NCBI GenBank assembly: GCA_902766005.1
Contig: CACXCB010000323.1
Span: 1 to 64,000, forward strand
DNA: 64,000 nucleotides
Origin: an uncultured Erysipelotrichaceae bacterium
Lineage (GTDB): Bacteria; Bacillota_I; Bacilli_A; Erysipelotrichales; Erysipelotrichaceae
Direction: 5' to 3'
The notes beneath the pieces are model-generated. The model made no database searches and had not been told where the DNA came from. It saw only the letters and a list, made by a program, of their open reading frames with translations. The translations under genes were made by a program, and so were the position numbers. Numbering within the stretch: position 1 is the stretch's first letter; every line of letters begins with the position of its first letter. Below are positions 3,778-20,878 of this stretch, piece after piece.

Positions 3778-3832
3778 AAAAAGGACGGGATATCCTTCTA
3801 TTCATAGAAGCCGTATCCGCAGCGTCCTTTTT
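3778..3832. terminator. Bidirectional terminator between convergent genes
   Basis: Arms AAAAAGGACG and CGTCCTTTTT enclose a second paired segment (GGATA with TATCC). A runs on the left and T runs on the right make it usable from both strands. It overlaps the last codons of the minus-strand GGDEF gene. Confidence 0.7.
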
Positions 3833-5150
3833 CTTTGACTTTGTATAAAGCACGGTCTGCATTTTTATAAATCTGATCAAAACTGATATTCTGATCTGTA
3901 AAGGCAATGCCGATACTTAAAGAAACAGGAGGGATATCATCCGATCTGCGCGGATGATTTAAAGAGTGGTTCAAATTCTCCATTTTTTCACTGATCAGTT
4001 CTTTCAGCTCAGGGCCTGCATGAATCATGATGATCGCAAATTCATCACCTCCGATACGGCATACATAGTCAATCGAACGGAAGGATGCACGCAAGTGATT
4101 AGCGACTTCGGTCAATACTTTATCACCTACCGCATGACCATATGTGTCATTGATGGTTTTGAACTTGTCTACATCAACAAGTATCAATGCAGCCTGCTGA
4201 TCATCAATGATTTCTTTCATGGATTCAAAGATTTTCCGATTGTACAATCCGGTTAAGGAATCATGAGTGGCTTCATAGGTAAGTTCTGATGCCTGTTTTT
4301 CTTTTTCATCATACATTTCATTATATGTAAGAGCTAAGAAGCGCATTTCTTCAGAACCTTTTATCGGTATTTTTTTCTGGCTTCGTATATTCAATACAGC
4401 CTGATGCAATGGAGAAAGAATCAGCCGGTTGGTGAATACTACAAGGAAGAAGACGATAATTAACAAAACAACAATCGTAATATTCTGCTTGTGCAGCTGG
4501 CCCAGCATTTCTGAGGAATTCTCTATTTGTTCATTCTTTGTGACAGAGATCAGTTCATCAATACTGTTATTGATGTTGGCGTAGATGTCTTGTTTCTGCT
4601 TTAAATAGCTTTCATTGAATACAAGATCTTGTGATAACAGGATTTTTTCTTCATTGCTTAATGCTTTTTCTTCTTCGGATAAAGATATATTCTGTAAAAC
4701 TTCCGGGAAGTCTTTGATGTCATAACCTCTTCCTTCGATGGAAAGAACTATGGAATGATATTCCTGCTCCAGAAGCTTATTGGAAGCTGCCAGGGCATTC
4801 TGCAAAGATTCATTGGCTCTGGTGCCGCTGAAATATCTTTCAAGATCAGCAATGGCATTATCCCTTCTTCTGGTTGATTCAATTTCGTTAAAGAAATCAT
4901 CTATGCAGGAAATATTGCCGTTGATCGAAAATTCTCTGACTTTGTTTGTCAGATAATCGGAAGCAGCCTGCATATCGGCCGCATCTTTCTGACAATCGAT
5001 ATATTTTGTCGTGATCTGTTCCGATAAACGGTAAATTCTTGTTGTCTGGTAATTGGAAAACAGAAGATAGACAGATAAAAGGCTTGCAATGATCATCATT
5101 ACAATATTCAGGTTTCTTACCACAATTCCTTTTCTGCTGTTTTCGTTCAT
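3798..5150 (-). CDS. Membrane diguanylate cyclase (GGDEF)
   Basis: 450-residue membrane sensor and c-di-GMP synthase. A first transmembrane helix lies at about residues 14-32 and a second at about 223-245, framing a roughly 185-residue extracytoplasmic, helix-rich sensor region. The C-terminal GGDEF domain is complete: HDSLTGLYNR, DVDKFKTINDTYGH and RIGGDEFAIIM, with SLSIGIA near the end. The intact GGDEF motif predicts activity. The ATG has no Shine-Dalgarno sequence; TGTTATAAT ends 6 nt before it. Its product would be substrate for the EAL domain encoded next to it at 5385, in opposite orientation. Confidence 0.92.
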   Translation of the reverse strand: MNENSRKGIVVRNLNIVMMIIASLLSVYLLFSNYQTTRIYRLSEQITTKYIDCQKDAADMQAASDYLTNKVREFSINGNISCIDDFFNEIESTRRRDNAIADLERYFSGTRANESLQNALAASNKLLEQEYHSIVLSIEGRGYDIKDFPEVLQNISLSEEEKALSNEEKILLSQDLVFNESYLKQKQDIYANINNSIDELISVTKNEQIENSSEMLGQLHKQNITIVVLLIIVFFLVVFTNRLILSPLHQAVLNIRSQKKIPIKGSEEMRFLALTYNEMYDEKEKQASELTYEATHDSLTGLYNRKIFESMKEIIDDQQAALILVDVDKFKTINDTYGHAVGDKVLTEVANHLRASFRSIDYVCRIGGDEFAIIMIHAGPELKELISEKMENLNHSLNHPRRSDDIPPVSLSIGIAFTDQNISFDQIYKNADRALYKVKEKGRCGYGFYE

Positions 5151-5384: not shown

Positions 5385-8018
5385 ATGCCGAAAAATCATG
5401 TGAAATTTCATTCGTCCACCGGAAAAAGAAAAATCTTAGTGGCAGATGATGAAATGATCAATAGAGAACTTTTGGGTGCAGTTTTGGAAAGCGAATATGA
5501 TATTCTTTTTGCCAAAGATGGTGAGGAAGCTTTTGAATGCATACAGACTTACAGAGATACCATTTCTCTTGTTCTTCTGGATTTATTGATGCCGAAGATG
5601 ACCGGTATAGAAGTTTTGGAAAAGATGCGTCCGGATCCGGTTTTAAGAAAAATACCGGTAATTGTCATCACTTCGGATCAAAGTGCAGAAATAGAGTGTC
5701 TCCAGCTTGGAGCGATTGATTTTATTCCTAAACCATATCCGCAGCCGGGAGTTATTCTGGCACGAGTTTTGCGTACCATTGAATTGTCGGAAGACAGGGA
5801 TATTATTCAATATACCGAAAGAGATGCATTAACCGGCTTATACAATAAAGAGTATTTTTACCGTTATGCGATACAGTATGATCATCATCATAAAGAGGAA
5901 GAGATGGATGCCATTGTCATCGATGTCAATCACTTCCATATGATCAATGAACGCTTTGGCAAAGCATATGGTGACGATGTTTTAAAGAGGATTGCAGAAA
6001 AGGTCAGGGAAATTGTCAGAAATTCTGGCGGTATTGTATGCCGAAGGGAGAATGACACGTTTCTGGTCTATTGCCCGCATCGGGAGGACTATGAAAGCAT
6101 TCTTGAAAAATCTTCTATCGGCCTTGCCGGAGATGATAAAGCCTCTAACCGTGTGCGCTTGCGCATAGGAATCTATTCCCATGTTGATAAGACAATTGAT
6201 ATGGAGAGAAGATTTGACAGAGCCAAAGTAGCTGCGGATACCATTCGTAACAGTTATACAAACCAGATTGCTTTATACGATAACAACCTCCATGAAAAGG
6301 AATTGTACGCAGAGACGCTTCTGGAAGATTTTCATGAAGCCATCCGCACAAAACAGTTTAAAGTATTCTATCAGCCCAAATTTGATATTCGTACGAAGAT
6401 CCCTGTATTAAACAGTGCTGAAGCGCTTGTCCGCTGGTTTCATCCGTCTTTAGGCATGATCTCTCCGGGAATCTTTATTCCGCTCTTCGAAGAAAACGGA
6501 TTGATCCGTGAGCTGGATAATTATGTCTGGAGGCAGACGGCTGAACAGATTAAAGCGTGGAAGGAGAAATTTGATTTCACGGTTCCGGTATCGGTTAACG
6601 TATCACGTATCGATATGTATGATCCAAACCTGATTGATAATCTGACCGGTATTTTAAAAGAATATGATCTGACGCCAAACGAACTTTTACTGGAGATTAC
6701 CGAATCGGCTTATACCCAGGATTCTGCTCAGATTATACAGGTGGTGGAACACCTGCGTGAACTTGGCTTCCGCATTGAAATGGATGATTTCGGTACCGGC
6801 TATTCCTCTTTAAACATGATTTCCAAATTGCCGATCGATGCCTTGAAACTCGATATGATGTTTATTCGTTCTGCTTTCAGCAATGTCAGGGATACAAGAA
6901 TGATCGAAGTCATTATTGATATTGCAGATTATCTGTCTGTTCCGGTTATTGCCGAAGGTGTAGAAACAGAAGAACAGCTGAATGCTTTAAAAGCTATGGG
7001 GTGTGACATTGTACAGGGATATTACTTTTCAAAACCCGTTCCTTCCGATGAATATGAGAAATTCATTATCGGTAAAAAGGAAAGCGGTCTGAATACTTCT
7101 GCATTTGATGCCGGAAGCAGTCATTCCGGAAACGAAGAAAGACTGGGCAGAATTGTGCATGCCTTAACCAGCGGGTTTGAAAGCATTTATTATGTAGATA
7201 CGGATAATAATCACTATGTGGAATTCAATTCACATGGAAGGTATGAAGATCTTCAGATTGAAAGAAGCGGTAACGATTTCTTCGGTGATACACAGAAGAA
7301 TATGTCAAAACTCATTCACAAAGATGATGTCGAAAGGGTTATTCTTTCGATGCAGAAGGAAGTCTTGCTGACACACCTGAAACAAGAGGATTCTTTCTCC
7401 ATGACATATCGTCTGATGATCGAAGGGGAACCGGTATATTACAATTTGAAGGTGGTCAGGGCAAATTACGAAGACGGTCATCATATTGTCATAGGAATCA
7501 GCAATGTTAATGATTCCATGAAGCAGGCGATTGATGATGAAGAAAGCAAGCTCAGAAGTGTTGAATTCTTTAATATCGCCCAAGCCCTGTCACATGATTT
7601 TGAAAGCATTTACTACATTAATCTTTTAACCGATGAATACCGTGAGTTTACTACCCAAGGTGCTTACGAAACCGTTCCGATGGAAATGAGCGGGAATGAT
7701 TTCTTTAAAGAGTGTCAGGAAAACATGTGCAAAGTTGTCTATGAAGGTGACAGGGACAGAGTTTCTGCATATATGCAGAAAAATGCTCTGCTGGAGGGAT
7801 TGGAAATAAGCCCTGTTCTGTTCATTGAATATCATTTGATGGTTGATGATAAGCCTGTTCCTTTCCGTATGAAAATTGTCAAGAGTGATGATGGCAATCA
7901 TATGATCATCGGTGTAACGAATATCACTGTACAGATGGAGCAGGAAAAGGAATTTGATACAGTCAGAAAAGAAAGAATTACTTATTCTTCGATTGCCCAG
8001 GCTCTGGCAGCGGATTAA
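5385..8018 (+). CDS. Receiver-GGDEF(degenerate)-EAL-PAS protein, ended by an in-frame TAA
   Basis: 877 residues up to a TAA at 8016. Receiver domain: acidic pair D21-D22, phosphoacceptor D66 in VLLDLLMP, K116. Next a GGDEF-like domain (about 143-300) whose signature is RRENDTF at 220-226, so it cannot be catalytic. Then a full EAL phosphodiesterase: EAL at 346-348, DDFGTGYSS at 467-475, AEGVETEEQ and QGYYFSKP. From about 585 two tandem roughly 125-residue PAS-like modules follow, each opening FESIYY. The frame stays open after the TAA to 8858, adding a third module and an intact GGDEF domain. As encoded the product is a receiver-controlled c-di-GMP phosphodiesterase without its cyclase half. 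Start has AGGAGGGTGAC. Confidence 0.88.
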   Translation: MPKNHVKFHSSTGKRKILVADDEMINRELLGAVLESEYDILFAKDGEEAFECIQTYRDTISLVLLDLLMPKMTGIEVLEKMRPDPVLRKIPVIVITSDQSAEIECLQLGAIDFIPKPYPQPGVILARVLRTIELSEDRDIIQYTERDALTGLYNKEYFYRYAIQYDHHHKEEEMDAIVIDVNHFHMINERFGKAYGDDVLKRIAEKVREIVRNSGGIVCRRENDTFLVYCPHREDYESILEKSSIGLAGDDKASNRVRLRIGIYSHVDKTIDMERRFDRAKVAADTIRNSYTNQIALYDNNLHEKELYAETLLEDFHEAIRTKQFKVFYQPKFDIRTKIPVLNSAEALVRWFHPSLGMISPGIFIPLFEENGLIRELDNYVWRQTAEQIKAWKEKFDFTVPVSVNVSRIDMYDPNLIDNLTGILKEYDLTPNELLLEITESAYTQDSAQIIQVVEHLRELGFRIEMDDFGTGYSSLNMISKLPIDALKLDMMFIRSAFSNVRDTRMIEVIIDIADYLSVPVIAEGVETEEQLNALKAMGCDIVQGYYFSKPVPSDEYEKFIIGKKESGLNTSAFDAGSSHSGNEERLGRIVHALTSGFESIYYVDTDNNHYVEFNSHGRYEDLQIERSGNDFFGDTQKNMSKLIHKDDVERVILSMQKEVLLTHLKQEDSFSMTYRLMIEGEPVYYNLKVVRANYEDGHHIVIGISNVNDSMKQAIDDEESKLRSVEFFNIAQALSHDFESIYYINLLTDEYREFTTQGAYETVPMEMSGNDFFKECQENMCKVVYEGDRDRVSAYMQKNALLEGLEISPVLFIEYHLMVDDKPVPFRMKIVKSDDGNHMIIGVTNITVQMEQEKEFDTVRKERITYSSIAQALAAD

Positions 8019-8057
8019 TTCAGCATCTATTATGTCAATACAGAAACAGATGCTTTT

Positions 8058-8858
8058 GTGGAGTACAGTTCTAAAGGAAGCTATGAAACACTCGGAATTG
8101 AAAAGGAAGGGGATGATTTCTTCGACCTCAGCCGGAAGAATATCAAAAATGTCATTTATAAAGAGGACTGTGAAAAATTCCTGAATGCTTTTACCAAAGA
8201 GAATGTCTTAAAGTATGTTAAGAGAGATAAGACATTTACGATTACCTACCGCTTGGTTCTCGAAGGCATTCCGACATATGTCAGTATGAAAGTCATCGGT
8301 ATGGAAGATCCTGATGATCCGCACATCGTGGTTGGCATTAATAATGTTGATGCACAGATGAAAAGAGAACTGGAACTTGGCATTATTAAAGAAAAAGCAA
8401 ATCGAGATGCTCTTACAGGTGTCAAAAGCAAGCATGCTTATGAAGAAGAAGAGCTGGAAATTGATGAAAAGATTGCGAATAAGGAAATTGAATCATTCGC
8501 TTTGGCTTTTTGCGATGTCAACGGATTGAAAGAGATCAACGACCGATTCGGACATCAGGCAGGGGATCAGCATTTGAAAAACGCATGTATGATCATCTGT
8601 AATATCTTCACGCACAGTCCGGTTTATCGCATCGGCGGGGATGAGTTCCTGGTAATCTTAAGAGGAACCGATTTTGAAAACAGATGCCAGTTACTGAATG
8701 CGTTGATGGAAAGCAATGATACCGAAGGGACACCGGTAATAGCCTGCGGCATAGCCGAGTATGATCCCGAAAAAGATGTAAATGTTGCATCTGTATTCGG
8801 CAGGGCAGATGCTGTGATGTACCAGCATAAAAACGAATTAAAGAAGGAGGAATTATGA
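8058..8858 (+). CDS. Distal PAS-like/GGDEF fragment of the interrupted gene
   Basis: In the same frame as the gene at 5385 and separated from it only by the TAA at 8016-8018; coding continues at once with FSIYYVNTETDAFVEY, the third copy of the PAS-like module, then a complete GGDEF domain (RDALTGVKSKHAYEE, DVNGLKEINDRFGHQAGD, RIGGDEFLVILRG). The first start-like codon is GTG at 8058, without a convincing ribosome binding site, and it falls inside the module, so independent expression is doubtful. I regard 5385-8858 as one ancestral gene of 1157 codons split by one substitution. Its stop overlaps the cupin start by 4 nt. Confidence 0.75.
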   Translation: MEYSSKGSYETLGIEKEGDDFFDLSRKNIKNVIYKEDCEKFLNAFTKENVLKYVKRDKTFTITYRLVLEGIPTYVSMKVIGMEDPDDPHIVVGINNVDAQMKRELELGIIKEKANRDALTGVKSKHAYEEEELEIDEKIANKEIESFALAFCDVNGLKEINDRFGHQAGDQHLKNACMIICNIFTHSPVYRIGGDEFLVILRGTDFENRCQLLNALMESNDTEGTPVIACGIAEYDPEKDVNVASVFGRADAVMYQHKNELKKEEL

Positions 8859-9205
8859 TTCGCTACAGTAATGAGTGTAAAATAGAATACCGTGAGCACA
8901 TGAGAGACGGGGAAGGAACGGTTAAACTGACACACTTTATTAATGATCCGGAAGATCTGAATAATAAAGGAAGGCTGTTTGCCAAAATCACGCTGGAGCC
9001 CGGCTGCAGCATCGGGTATCATGTGCATGAGCATGATGCAGAATTATTTCATATTTTAAAAGGAACCGCAGAATACAGCGACAATGGTGAGATAAAAACT
9101 GTCAAAGCCGGTGATGTAACTATCTGCCCGGTAGGACAGGGACATTCCATTGCCAATCATTCGAATGAGACAGTTGAAGTGATTGCTGTTGTGATTTATG
9201 AATAA
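8855..9205 (+). CDS. Cupin domain protein
   Basis: 116-residue single-domain cupin. The conserved metal-binding set is visible: GYHVHEHDAELFHILKG supplies two His and a Glu, and PVGQGHSIANHS supplies the third His. The ligand or reaction cannot be inferred. AAGGAGGAATT precedes the ATG, which overlaps the previous stop as ATGA, so translation is likely coupled to the upstream GGDEF frame. The alcohol dehydrogenase gene follows after 9 nt, giving a cupin-dehydrogenase operon. Confidence 0.85.
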   Translation: MIRYSNECKIEYREHMRDGEGTVKLTHFINDPEDLNNKGRLFAKITLEPGCSIGYHVHEHDAELFHILKGTAEYSDNGEIKTVKAGDVTICPVGQGHSIANHSNETVEVIAVVIYE

Positions 9206-9214
9206 GAGGTAAAC

Positions 9215-10285
9215 ATGACATTTTACATGCCTGTGAAAGTATATGATGAAAAGAATTGCGTATTAAACCATGCCGGAGAAATTGCTTCATTCGGTACAAA
9301 AGCTTTATTGGTGACCGGAAGAAGTTCTGCCAAAAAAAGCGGTGCGCTGGATGATGTACAAAATGCATTATCACGATTTGAGACATCATATTGTTTATTT
9401 GATGAGATTGAAGAAAATCCATCTGTAGAAACGATTTGGAAAGCATATGAATATGCCAAAAAAGAAGATGTAGATTTTGTGATCGGCATCGGCGGAGGAT
9501 CACCGCTGGATGCTTCTAAAGCCATTGCTTTTCTTCTTGATCGGAAAGATGCTTCAAAGGAAGACTTATACAATGCAGATTTGCCTGCAGATGCATTGCC
9601 GGTCATCGCAATACCTACGACATGCGGTACCGGTTCGGAAGTGACGGGTGTATCGGTATTAACCGTGCATGAAAAGAAAACTAAAGTTTCCATACCGCAT
9701 AAGATCTTTCCGAAGATCGCATTGGTGGATGGAAAGTACTTAAAATCAGCACCAAAATCAATGATTGTCAGTACGGCAATTGATGCTTTGGCACATATGA
9801 TTGAAAGCTTTGAAAGCAACAAAGCAGATGATTACAGTAAAGCTGCTGTATTGGAAGGATTAAAGATCTGGGGGAGATCCAAAGATACTTTGTTGAATGG
9901 CCTGAATGAGGAATGCTTTGGAGATATGATGCGTGCATCCACATTTGCCGGAATAGCGATTGCCCAGACAGGCACTTCCATTCCTCATGCATTGAGTTAT
10001 ATTCTGACATATGAGGATAAAATTCCTCATGGTATGGCTTGCGGATACTTCTTAAAAGGATATCTGCAGAATGCAGATCCATCCGATCGGAAACAGATAT
10101 TGGATGCGGCAGGATTTCAGTCCATGGAAGAATTCTCTGCTTATATGGATCAAATCTTTTTGGATATGCATGTCAAAGAAGAAACTCTGCAAAGGGCATA
10201 TGAAGTTGTTTCTCAAAACAAAGCAAGATTAAAAGGATGCCGTTTCTTCGTGGATGAAGAAGTACTGAAGAAAATGGTGTTTTAG
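9215..10285 (+). CDS. Iron-containing alcohol dehydrogenase
   Basis: 356-residue group III (Fe-type) alcohol dehydrogenase. NAD-binding GIGGGSPLDASKA and the family signature PTTCGTGSEVTGVSVLT are clear; metal ligands come from the D/H pattern in AIDALAHMIES and IPHALSYIL with EDKIPHGMACG. The family reduces aldehydes or oxidises small alcohols and diols; the exact substrate is unknown. AAGAGGTAAAC precedes the ATG and the gene follows the cupin closely. A weak hairpin lies downstream. Confidence 0.88.
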   Translation: MTFYMPVKVYDEKNCVLNHAGEIASFGTKALLVTGRSSAKKSGALDDVQNALSRFETSYCLFDEIEENPSVETIWKAYEYAKKEDVDFVIGIGGGSPLDASKAIAFLLDRKDASKEDLYNADLPADALPVIAIPTTCGTGSEVTGVSVLTVHEKKTKVSIPHKIFPKIALVDGKYLKSAPKSMIVSTAIDALAHMIESFESNKADDYSKAAVLEGLKIWGRSKDTLLNGLNEECFGDMMRASTFAGIAIAQTGTSIPHALSYILTYEDKIPHGMACGYFLKGYLQNADPSDRKQILDAAGFQSMEEFSAYMDQIFLDMHVKEETLQRAYEVVSQNKARLKGCRFFVDEEVLKKMVF

Positions 10286-11472: not shown

Positions 11473-12777
11473 ATGACAGATATCAGAAATTCAAAGAATT
11501 GGAGCATCGAGACAAAACAGGTACACATCGGACAAGAGCAGGCAGATCCTGCTACAGATGCAAGAGCTGTTCCGATTTACGCAACCGCTTCTTATGTATT
11601 CCATAATTCCCAGCACGCTGCAGATCGCTTTGGATTAAAAGATCCGGGCAATATCTACAGCCGTCTGACAAATCCGACAGAAGGTGTTTTTGAAGAAAGA
11701 ATCGCTGCTCTGGAAAATGGGTCAGCTGCTTTAGCAGTCGCTTCCGGTGCTGCCGCAATCACCTATACATTTCAGGCCTTAGCCAAGGCAGGAGAACATA
11801 TTGTTGCCGCAAAGACCATTTACGGAGGAACGTATAATCTTCTTGCACATACACTTCCGTTAACCTCCGGTATTATCACAACTTTTGTGGATCCGGAAGA
11901 AGAAGGCTCTTTTGAAAAAGCCATTCAGGAGAATACCAAAGCAATCTTTATTGAAGCTTTGGGCAACCCCAATTCCAATATCATCGATATTGAAAGCGTG
12001 GCAGAAATTGCGCATAAACATGGATTACCTCTTGTGATTGATTCCACGTTTGCTACACCGGTATTGCTGAGACCGATTGAATGGGGTGCAGATATTGTTG
12101 TGCATTCCGCTACAAAATTTATTAACGGCCATGGTACAGCTATAGGCGGCGTGATTATAGAATCGGGTAAATTCGATTGGAAGAAATCCGGAAGATATCC
12201 ATGGATCTCTGAACCAAATCCAAGTTATCACGGAATCTCCTTTTATGAGGCGACAGGGCCGGCAGCTTTTGTGACATATATCAGAGCAATTCTTTTAAGG
12301 GATACCGGTTCTACATTATCTCCGTTTGCAGCATTCTTGTTCTTGCAAGGTTTGGAAACTTTATCCTTAAGAGTAGAAAGACATGTAGAAAATGCGCTTG
12401 CCGTTGTCAATTATCTGAAGGATCATCCGCAAGTGGAGGCAGTCCATCATCCATCTCTGGAATCAGAACCTAGCCATAAATATTATGATAAGTATTTTCC
12501 AAACGGAGGCGGTTCCATCTTTACTTTTGAAATCAAAGGAGATGCGGAAAAAGCCAAGGCATTTATCGATCATTTACCGATCTTCTCTTTATTAGCTAAC
12601 GTGGCTGATGTCAAATCCCTGGTCATTCATCCGGCCAGTACAACACATTCTCAATTGACTGAAGAAGAGTTATTGGATCAGGGAATCAAACCGAATACAA
12701 TTCGTTTATCCATCGGTATAGAAAATAAAAATGATCTGATCGCTGCACTGGATGCTGCATTTGAAGCAGTCAGATAA
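11473..12777 (+). CDS. metY: O-acetylhomoserine aminocarboxypropyltransferase (MetY type)
   Basis: 434-residue PLP enzyme of the Cys/Met metabolism family. The PLP lysine is in VVHSATKFINGHGTAIGG, with phosphate-binding SGAAAITYTFQ and C-terminal SLVIHPASTTHSQL. Its length (about 430) and the NPSYHGISFYE insertion fit O-acetylhomoserine sulfhydrylases rather than the shorter cystathionine lyases. It would convert O-acetylhomoserine and sulfide to homocysteine in the cytoplasm. AGGAAGG precedes the ATG. A second, interrupted metY-type gene sits at 19601 beside metA; this intact copy may carry the activity. Terminator directly downstream. Confidence 0.9.
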   Translation: MTDIRNSKNWSIETKQVHIGQEQADPATDARAVPIYATASYVFHNSQHAADRFGLKDPGNIYSRLTNPTEGVFEERIAALENGSAALAVASGAAAITYTFQALAKAGEHIVAAKTIYGGTYNLLAHTLPLTSGIITTFVDPEEEGSFEKAIQENTKAIFIEALGNPNSNIIDIESVAEIAHKHGLPLVIDSTFATPVLLRPIEWGADIVVHSATKFINGHGTAIGGVIIESGKFDWKKSGRYPWISEPNPSYHGISFYEATGPAAFVTYIRAILLRDTGSTLSPFAAFLFLQGLETLSLRVERHVENALAVVNYLKDHPQVEAVHHPSLESEPSHKYYDKYFPNGGGSIFTFEIKGDAEKAKAFIDHLPIFSLLANVADVKSLVIHPASTTHSQLTEEELLDQGIKPNTIRLSIGIENKNDLIAALDAAFEAVR

Positions 12778-19600: not shown

Positions 19601-20878
19601 ATGAAGAGAGAAACATTGTGTATCCAGGCGGGATACGAGCCGAAAAACGGCGAATCCAGAATGATGCCAATCGTACAAAGTACAACATTTAAATATGATA
19701 CAAGTGAAGACATGGGAAAACTGTTTGACCTTGAGGCAAGCGGATATTTCTACACAAGATTACAGAATCCTACCAATGACTAGGTTGCCGCAAAGATTGC
19801 CGCATTAGAAGGCGGAACAGCAGGCATGCTGACAAGCAGCGGCCAGGCTGCTACATTCTTCTCCGTATTTAATCTGGCGGGAGCAGGAGATCACGTTATT
19901 TCATCTTCTACAATCTATGGCGGAAGCTATAATTTATTCAACGTCACAATGCGCCGAATGGGCATTGACTTTACCTTTGTTGATCCGGACTGCTCTGATG
20001 AAGAACTCGAAGCTGCATTCAAGCCAAACACGAAATGTGTATTCGGTGAGACCCTTGCAAATCCTGCACTCATCGTATTCGACATTGAGAGATTCGCAAA
20101 AGCTGCACATGCTCATGGCGTGCCGTTAATCATTGATAATACATTTGCAACACCGATCAACTGCCGTCCGATCGAATGGGGTGCAGATATTGTTACCCAT
20201 TCCACCACAAAATATCTGGATGGACATGATGCAACTGTCGGCGGATGTATTGTTGATTCCGGGAAGTTTGACTGGATGGCGCATGCGGACAAGTTTCCGG
20301 GATTGACAACACCGGATGAGTCTTATCATGGAATCACCTATGCGGAAAAATTCGGCCTTGAAGGTGCATTCATCACAAAGGCAACAGCACAGCTGATGAG
20401 AGACCTTGGTTCCATCCAGGCACCAATGAACGCATACTTTTTGAATCTTGGTATCGAATCCCTGGCAGTCAGAATGCAGAGACATTGTGAAAACGGACAG
20501 AAGGTCGCAGAATTCTTGGAAAATCACAAGAATGTTACATGGGTGAATTATCCGGGTCTCAAATCCAACAAGTATTATGAAAGAGCACAAAAATATATGC
20601 CGGATGGAACATGCGGCGTTGTCTCTTTTGGCGTAAAGGGCGGAAGAAAAGCTGCTGAAGAATTCATGAAGCATCTAAAGATTGCCATGATCGCAACACA
20701 CGTGGCAGATGCACATACATGCGTTCTGCACCCTGCATCCTCGACGCATCGCCAGATGACAGATGAGGAGCTGATTGCTGCAGGAGTAGGACCGGATCTG
20801 ATCAGATTGTCTGTCGGTATTGAAAGCATTGATGATATCCTCGAGGATCTCGCACAGGCTTTGCGTTCCATTGACTGA
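19601..20878 (+). pseudogene. metY: O-acetylhomoserine sulfhydrylase-type gene interrupted by in-frame TAG
   Basis: A 426-codon PLP-enzyme frame broken by one TAG at 19781-19783 (codon 61), between QNPTND and VAAKIAALEGG. Both sides are intact and in the same frame, so this is a single substitution, not a frameshift. The rest is well preserved: LTSSGQAATFFSVFNLA, VTHSTTKYLDGHDATVGG with the PLP lysine, and CVLHPASSTHRQMTDEEL. The 60-residue first part alone cannot fold as an enzyme; the part from 19826 has a possible late start but lacks the N-terminal arm. Excellent ribosome binding site GGAGGATAGAAA at 19601. metA follows after 8 nt, so nonsense polarity may affect it. Confidence 0.85.

Follow-up and report, generated by a model that had tools for sequence, protein, structure and literature searches.

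The locus considered here raises the question of whether a single nonsense codon has recently removed one half of an enzyme that both makes and degrades c-di-GMP, or whether the gene is in reality intact, divided into two working proteins, or still translated through the stop. The window, that is, the whole stretch of DNA that was analysed, comprises 64,000 nucleotides from an uncultured, gut-type Erysipelotrichaceae bacterium, and within it the plus-strand frame at 5385-8858 extends over 1158 codons, from an ATG at 5385, preceded at 5 nt by the Shine-Dalgarno (SD) sequence AGGAGG, to a TGA at 8856-8858. Translation confirmed the original prediction that a lone TAA at 8016 splits this one long frame: the TAA at 8016-8018 (codon 878) is the only internal stop and breaks an otherwise long coding frame, and the 279 codons behind it contain neither a further stop nor a frameshift. 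The TAA was read in one assembly, that of the window's own genome (G000), which is a draft of 366 contigs with an estimated contamination of 6.5%, and no second, intact allele of the broken gene was found elsewhere in that assembly. The features of the frame are as follows.

5385..8018, plus strand: truncated open reading frame of 877 amino acids with receiver (REC), degenerate GGDEF, EAL and PAS-like modules 1 and 2 (translation, Pfam)
5433..5744, plus strand: receiver with the canonical Asp, DD, Ser/Thr and Lys residues as read from the translation (PF00072, E 2.1e-20)
5820..6260, plus strand: degenerate GGDEF domain with RRENDTF at the motif (PF00990; alignment to MucR, PDB 5m3c)
6327..7037, plus strand: EAL phosphodiesterase domain in which the catalytic residues are present (PF00563, E 8.2e-68; alignment with MucR)
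7143..7550, plus strand: PAS-like module 1 (module HMM, E 5e-55)
7563..7967, plus strand: PAS-like module 2 (module HMM; AlphaFold2 model, mean pLDDT 87)
7977..8390, plus strand: PAS-like module 3, which the stop interrupts shortly after the module begins (E 9e-55 for 8019-8390 with the module HMM)
8016..8018, plus strand: premature TAA, at a codon for Tyr in the sister species and in two other homologues (orthologue alignment)
8397..8840, plus strand: C-terminal GGDEF domain with intact motif, behind the stop (PF00990, E 4.8e-24; alignments)

The domain order that had been read from the letters, with a receiver, an inactive GGDEF, an EAL and two modules ahead of the stop and a third module and a GGDEF after it, was borne out by Pfam, which places the receiver, GGDEF and EAL at residues 17-120, 146-292, and 315-551, respectively, and by the module HMM. 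The first GGDEF domain has RRENDTF in place of the GGDEF motif, is degenerate in all orthologues, and is predicted to make no c-di-GMP. The EAL domain has all of the residues for hydrolysis when compared with MucR (EAL, N, the Glu of ITES, DDFG, Lys, EGVE, and Q). The C-terminal GGDEF has the domain and the motif (RIGGDEF) of a diguanylate cyclase, and by sequence reading it lacks the RxxD inhibitory site, with THSP at its place. The three modules, proposed originally as alignable repeats, indeed constitute one homologous repeat family, as a common HMM matches each of them at E below 1e-50, and no Pfam model matches them above threshold. The AlphaFold2 model of module 2 was compared with solved structures, and nearly all of its matches are PAS or LOV domains; the Z values are middling at ∼8 (best 8.4) but the top rows agree, which is why the three modules are predicted to have the PAS fold and the PAS-like label is right. 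PAS-fold modules that are invisible to Pfam stand in tandem at 7143-8390 of the window, at 7466-9889 of locus L105 and at many related loci, and such tandem modules occur in several c-di-GMP proteins of the group.

Among 70 genomes of the genus, that of a sister species (G033) carries an orthologue whose protein is 78% identical and which is open over its full length. At the stop site the window reads GCG GAT TAA TTC AGC and the sister reads GCG GAT TAT TTC AGC, the rest of the 15 bases being identical. Tyr also occupies this position in two more distant full-length homologues (L040, 58% identical; L041, 48%), and of the 53 modules with a residue in this column, 50 have Tyr or Phe, a count that includes some repeat copies of the same module. 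The stop is therefore explained by one substitution, and both the origin in a Tyr codon and the aromatic nature of the position, which had been deduced from the three modules of the window, are upheld by these comparisons. With the frame open in relatives, as is expected of a nonsense pseudogene, the stop is the derived state. Neither another copy bearing a stop at this codon nor a further close full-length orthologue was found in 272 family genomes, and a search of viral contigs gave no further copy of the stop site. Internal stops reported in some other relatives (G027, G031, and G047) were considered and rejected as parallels on the basis of the three fetched loci (L013, L014, and L017), at each of which the open frame closes before the reported match ends and the stop looks like an ordinary gene end.

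The stop also appears to be young. Lineage-specific amino-acid changes total 49 in the window copy and 59 in the sister, and they are distributed in the same manner about the stop, with 35 before and 14 behind it in the window and 43 and 16, respectively, in the sister (Fisher p = 1). As no relaxed selection is seen behind the stop, the change is recent, and if the tail has been free of selection since then, the largest excess of changes compatible with the counts would place it roughly within the last ∼3-4% of the branch, an estimate for which the branch length is itself rough because synonymous sites are saturated. The same picture would be expected from a sequencing error or from a polymorphism of very recent origin. 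The conservation of the tail is just as compatible with continued translation of the frame in some form, and to this extent it counts against a pseudogene.

What would be made from the broken frame depends on the starts available behind the stop and on the neighboring genes, which are conserved on both sides in the sister species.

3798..5150, minus strand: membrane diguanylate cyclase, intact and divergent (PF00990, E 1.5e-40), 76% identical and syntenic in the sister
8855..9205, plus strand: cupin protein with its own SD, AAGGAGG (PF07883), sister orthologue 89% identical
9215..10285, plus strand: iron-containing alcohol dehydrogenase, the gene that follows in the conserved order (PF00465), 84% identical in the sister

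The first candidate starts in frame after the stop (GTG 8058, TTG 8253, ATG 8286, and ATG 8301) all lack a proper SD, and those after 8058 fall within module 3. The GTG at 8058 is the first start of any kind and the ATG at 8286 is the first ATG, such that the 260 bases behind the stop are free of in-frame ATG codons. An independent gene beginning there was rejected for want of an SD. The comparisons above show the base change and that it is both derived and recent, whereas what is made from the frame, how active it is and any effect on the cell are inferred: as had been anticipated, the product would keep the EAL catalytic residues and lose the only intact GGDEF of the polypeptide (Pfam and MucR alignment). 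That it would function as a phosphodiesterase only is plausible, if unproven, and is weakened both by the intact membrane cyclase that adjoins it and by homologues of the phosphodiesterase core that are naturally devoid of a cyclase.

The expectation that translation coupling to the cupin gene would be lost has not fared as well. The broken frame and the cupin ATG do share an ATGA overlap in the window (8855-8858), but in the sister species the frame ends with a TAA ∼10 bases before the cupin ATG, with no overlap, and in both species a strong SD stands before the cupin ATG itself (four bases upstream in the window). The ATGA coupling is not conserved and its loss is therefore no strong prediction. 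Polarity via the 0.8 kb of untranslated RNA is possible.

The core formed by REC, degenerate GGDEF, and EAL is found among relatives in five settings.

Followed by three PAS modules and a GGDEF: the window, the sister species, L040 and L041
Fused in frame to a membrane cyclase: L042-L045, L103 and L104
Fused to a GGDEF alone: L096-L099
Ending with a single module and directly abutted by a cyclase encoded as a separate gene: L095
Standing alone: L102, in the window's own genome

The fused membrane cyclases are 33-36% identical to that of the window (3798-5150) in the membrane half and ∼50% in the GGDEF. In L095 (4411-8906, genome G008, contig C65) the gene for a phosphodiesterase of 767 amino acids abuts a separate gene for a protein of 737 amino acids, the GGDEF of which is 57% identical to the GGDEF lost in the window. 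Natural homologues without a cyclase domain are the 767-residue protein of G008 and one of 564 residues in the window's own genome. Given these varied settings, phosphodiesterase-only forms are normal in this group. The same core pairs with different cyclases, either as a fused domain or as an adjacent gene, and this pairing predicts a working partnership between the truncated phosphodiesterase of the window and the membrane cyclase at 3798-5150. Fusion and synteny together suggest that this cyclase, which by sequence reading has RSID at the RxxD position, is a functional partner of the core gene (5385-7080).

The window contains a second nonsense codon, a TAG at 19781-19783 in place of a Tyr of the sister, 12 kb from the first stop and on the same contig.

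19602..20873, plus strand: O-acetylhomoserine sulfhydrylase-like gene with the TAG at 19781-19783, 94.8% identical to the sister

An intact relative of this gene lies at 11473-12777, and the putative sulfhydrylase-like family name of both was assigned by reading their sequences. When 507 kb of the window's own genome was scanned for stops flanked by coding sequence on both sides, only 8016 and 19781 proved to be stops inside genes, the other hits being ordinary gene junctions with an SD, and no premature stops were found in about 430 kb of the other sampled contigs. The same type of scan in a control genome (G027) yielded many false positives from antisense ORFs and thus no usable baseline. 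A junction that mimics a nonsense codon is seen in L086 at 11487 (G000, C323:71487), where two tandem MgtC-like genes lie in the same frame with a lone TAA between them; an SD and an ATG follow the TAA, as at a normal junction.

We consider that the gene is probably a recent nonsense pseudogene, or a truncated allele, of a bifunctional c-di-GMP enzyme. Since the two stops are clustered on one contig, the main rival is an assembly or sequencing error, or a minority allele from a strain mixture, with the real gene intact, and we regard this as unlikely. It would agree with the draft state and estimated contamination of the assembly, with the occurrence of the second Tyr-to-stop change 12 kb away and of none in the ∼430 kb elsewhere, and with the unrelaxed tail, which is what an intact gene would show. 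However, the window copy has no excess of lineage-specific amino-acid changes over the sister, which indicates that the contig is not generally error-rich, and no intact second allele was found in the assembly. Readthrough of the stop by a suppressor tRNA or leaky termination, to give the full-length enzyme, would be consistent with the replacement of Tyr by both stops (TAA at 8016, TAG at 19781) and with the normal conservation behind the first of them, but it is hardly credible. The sole tRNA-Tyr found has the anticodon GTA, no UUA, CUA, or UCA anticodon occurs among the tRNAs scanned (all but two of those predicted), and 48 long ORFs of the window end in TAA (26), TGA (15), and TAG (7); on this tRNA content and normal stop usage, genome-wide recoding or a suppressor tRNA was rejected. 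Two Tyr-derived stops out of two are also unremarkable because Tyr codons provide 23% of the one-step routes to a stop in the broken gene. Rfam elements in the window consist of two tRNAs and nothing else.

There is a small chance that the stop has instead split the gene into two working proteins, a phosphodiesterase and a cyclase made from an internal start. Cyclase genes of Shigella flexneri with nonsense codons before the GGDEF (dgcE, dgcQ, and dgcN) still yield c-di-GMP and several proteins (PMC11327459), a natural two-gene version is present in G008, and the C-terminal GGDEF of the window is intact. Several of the Shigella genes have a start codon beside the stop (PMC11327459), with a Met within a few codons, whereas here there is the long ATG-free interval described above and the candidates that follow the stop are without a proper SD. 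Slighter still is the chance that the truncation is adaptive and acts as a switch, in a lineage where phosphodiesterase and cyclase have repeatedly been joined and parted; the partnership would then pass to the divergent membrane cyclase, which has a homologue as the fused partner in related species.

For the preferred reading, a recent nonsense pseudogene or truncated allele, we propose that the ancestral gene would have encoded a single polypeptide with a receiver, a degenerate and probably regulatory GGDEF, an EAL, three sensory modules of PAS-like type and a second GGDEF that was apparently an active cyclase. A substitution at base 8018 would have changed the codon for the Tyr that is conserved in PAS module 3 to TAA, and translation most likely stops at residue 877, giving a phosphodiesterase that is controlled by its receiver, keeps two whole PAS modules and has no cyclase part; the genes downstream would retain the ribosome-binding sites that they have. 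One cyclase output free of the RxxD feedback site would disappear from the cell, and with it the physical tie between that cyclase and the phosphodiesterase. Because the divergent membrane cyclase next to it and further GGDEF proteins are still there, c-di-GMP as a whole is probably affected only modestly and locally.

The stop by itself is an ordinary kind of mutation, and the locus matters as a clean case in which a two-way c-di-GMP enzyme has recently lost one half in a single step while the sister species keeps the intact version. The closest parallel to the mutation is found in dgcE, dgcQ, dgcN, and dgcM of Shigella, which likewise have a nonsense codon ahead of an intact GGDEF and intact copies in relatives. 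The Shigella genes differ in having a start near the stop, with some alleles making c-di-GMP, whereas the window gene has no nearby start, only a GTG at 8058 that lacks an SD before the first ATG at 8286; they are also mainly cyclases while the window gene has in addition an EAL ahead of the stop. In view of this precedent, calling such an allele dead needs experiment. In architecture, the best matches among solved structures are GGDEF-EAL phosphodiesterases such as MucR (PDB 5m3c) and DosP, in which a catalytic EAL likewise comes after a GGDEF that is degenerate or regulatory, but the window protein adds a receiver at the front, PAS modules and a second, intact GGDEF, and no sequence match supports orthology. 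The REC-GGDEF-EAL proteins of the same genus and of related MAGs (L042-L045, L095, and L102) have a related core, with about 47-75% identity per domain, and occur naturally with a fused cyclase, with an adjacent separate cyclase gene, or with no cyclase. All of these have normal gene ends, however, while the stop in the window lies inside a conserved module.
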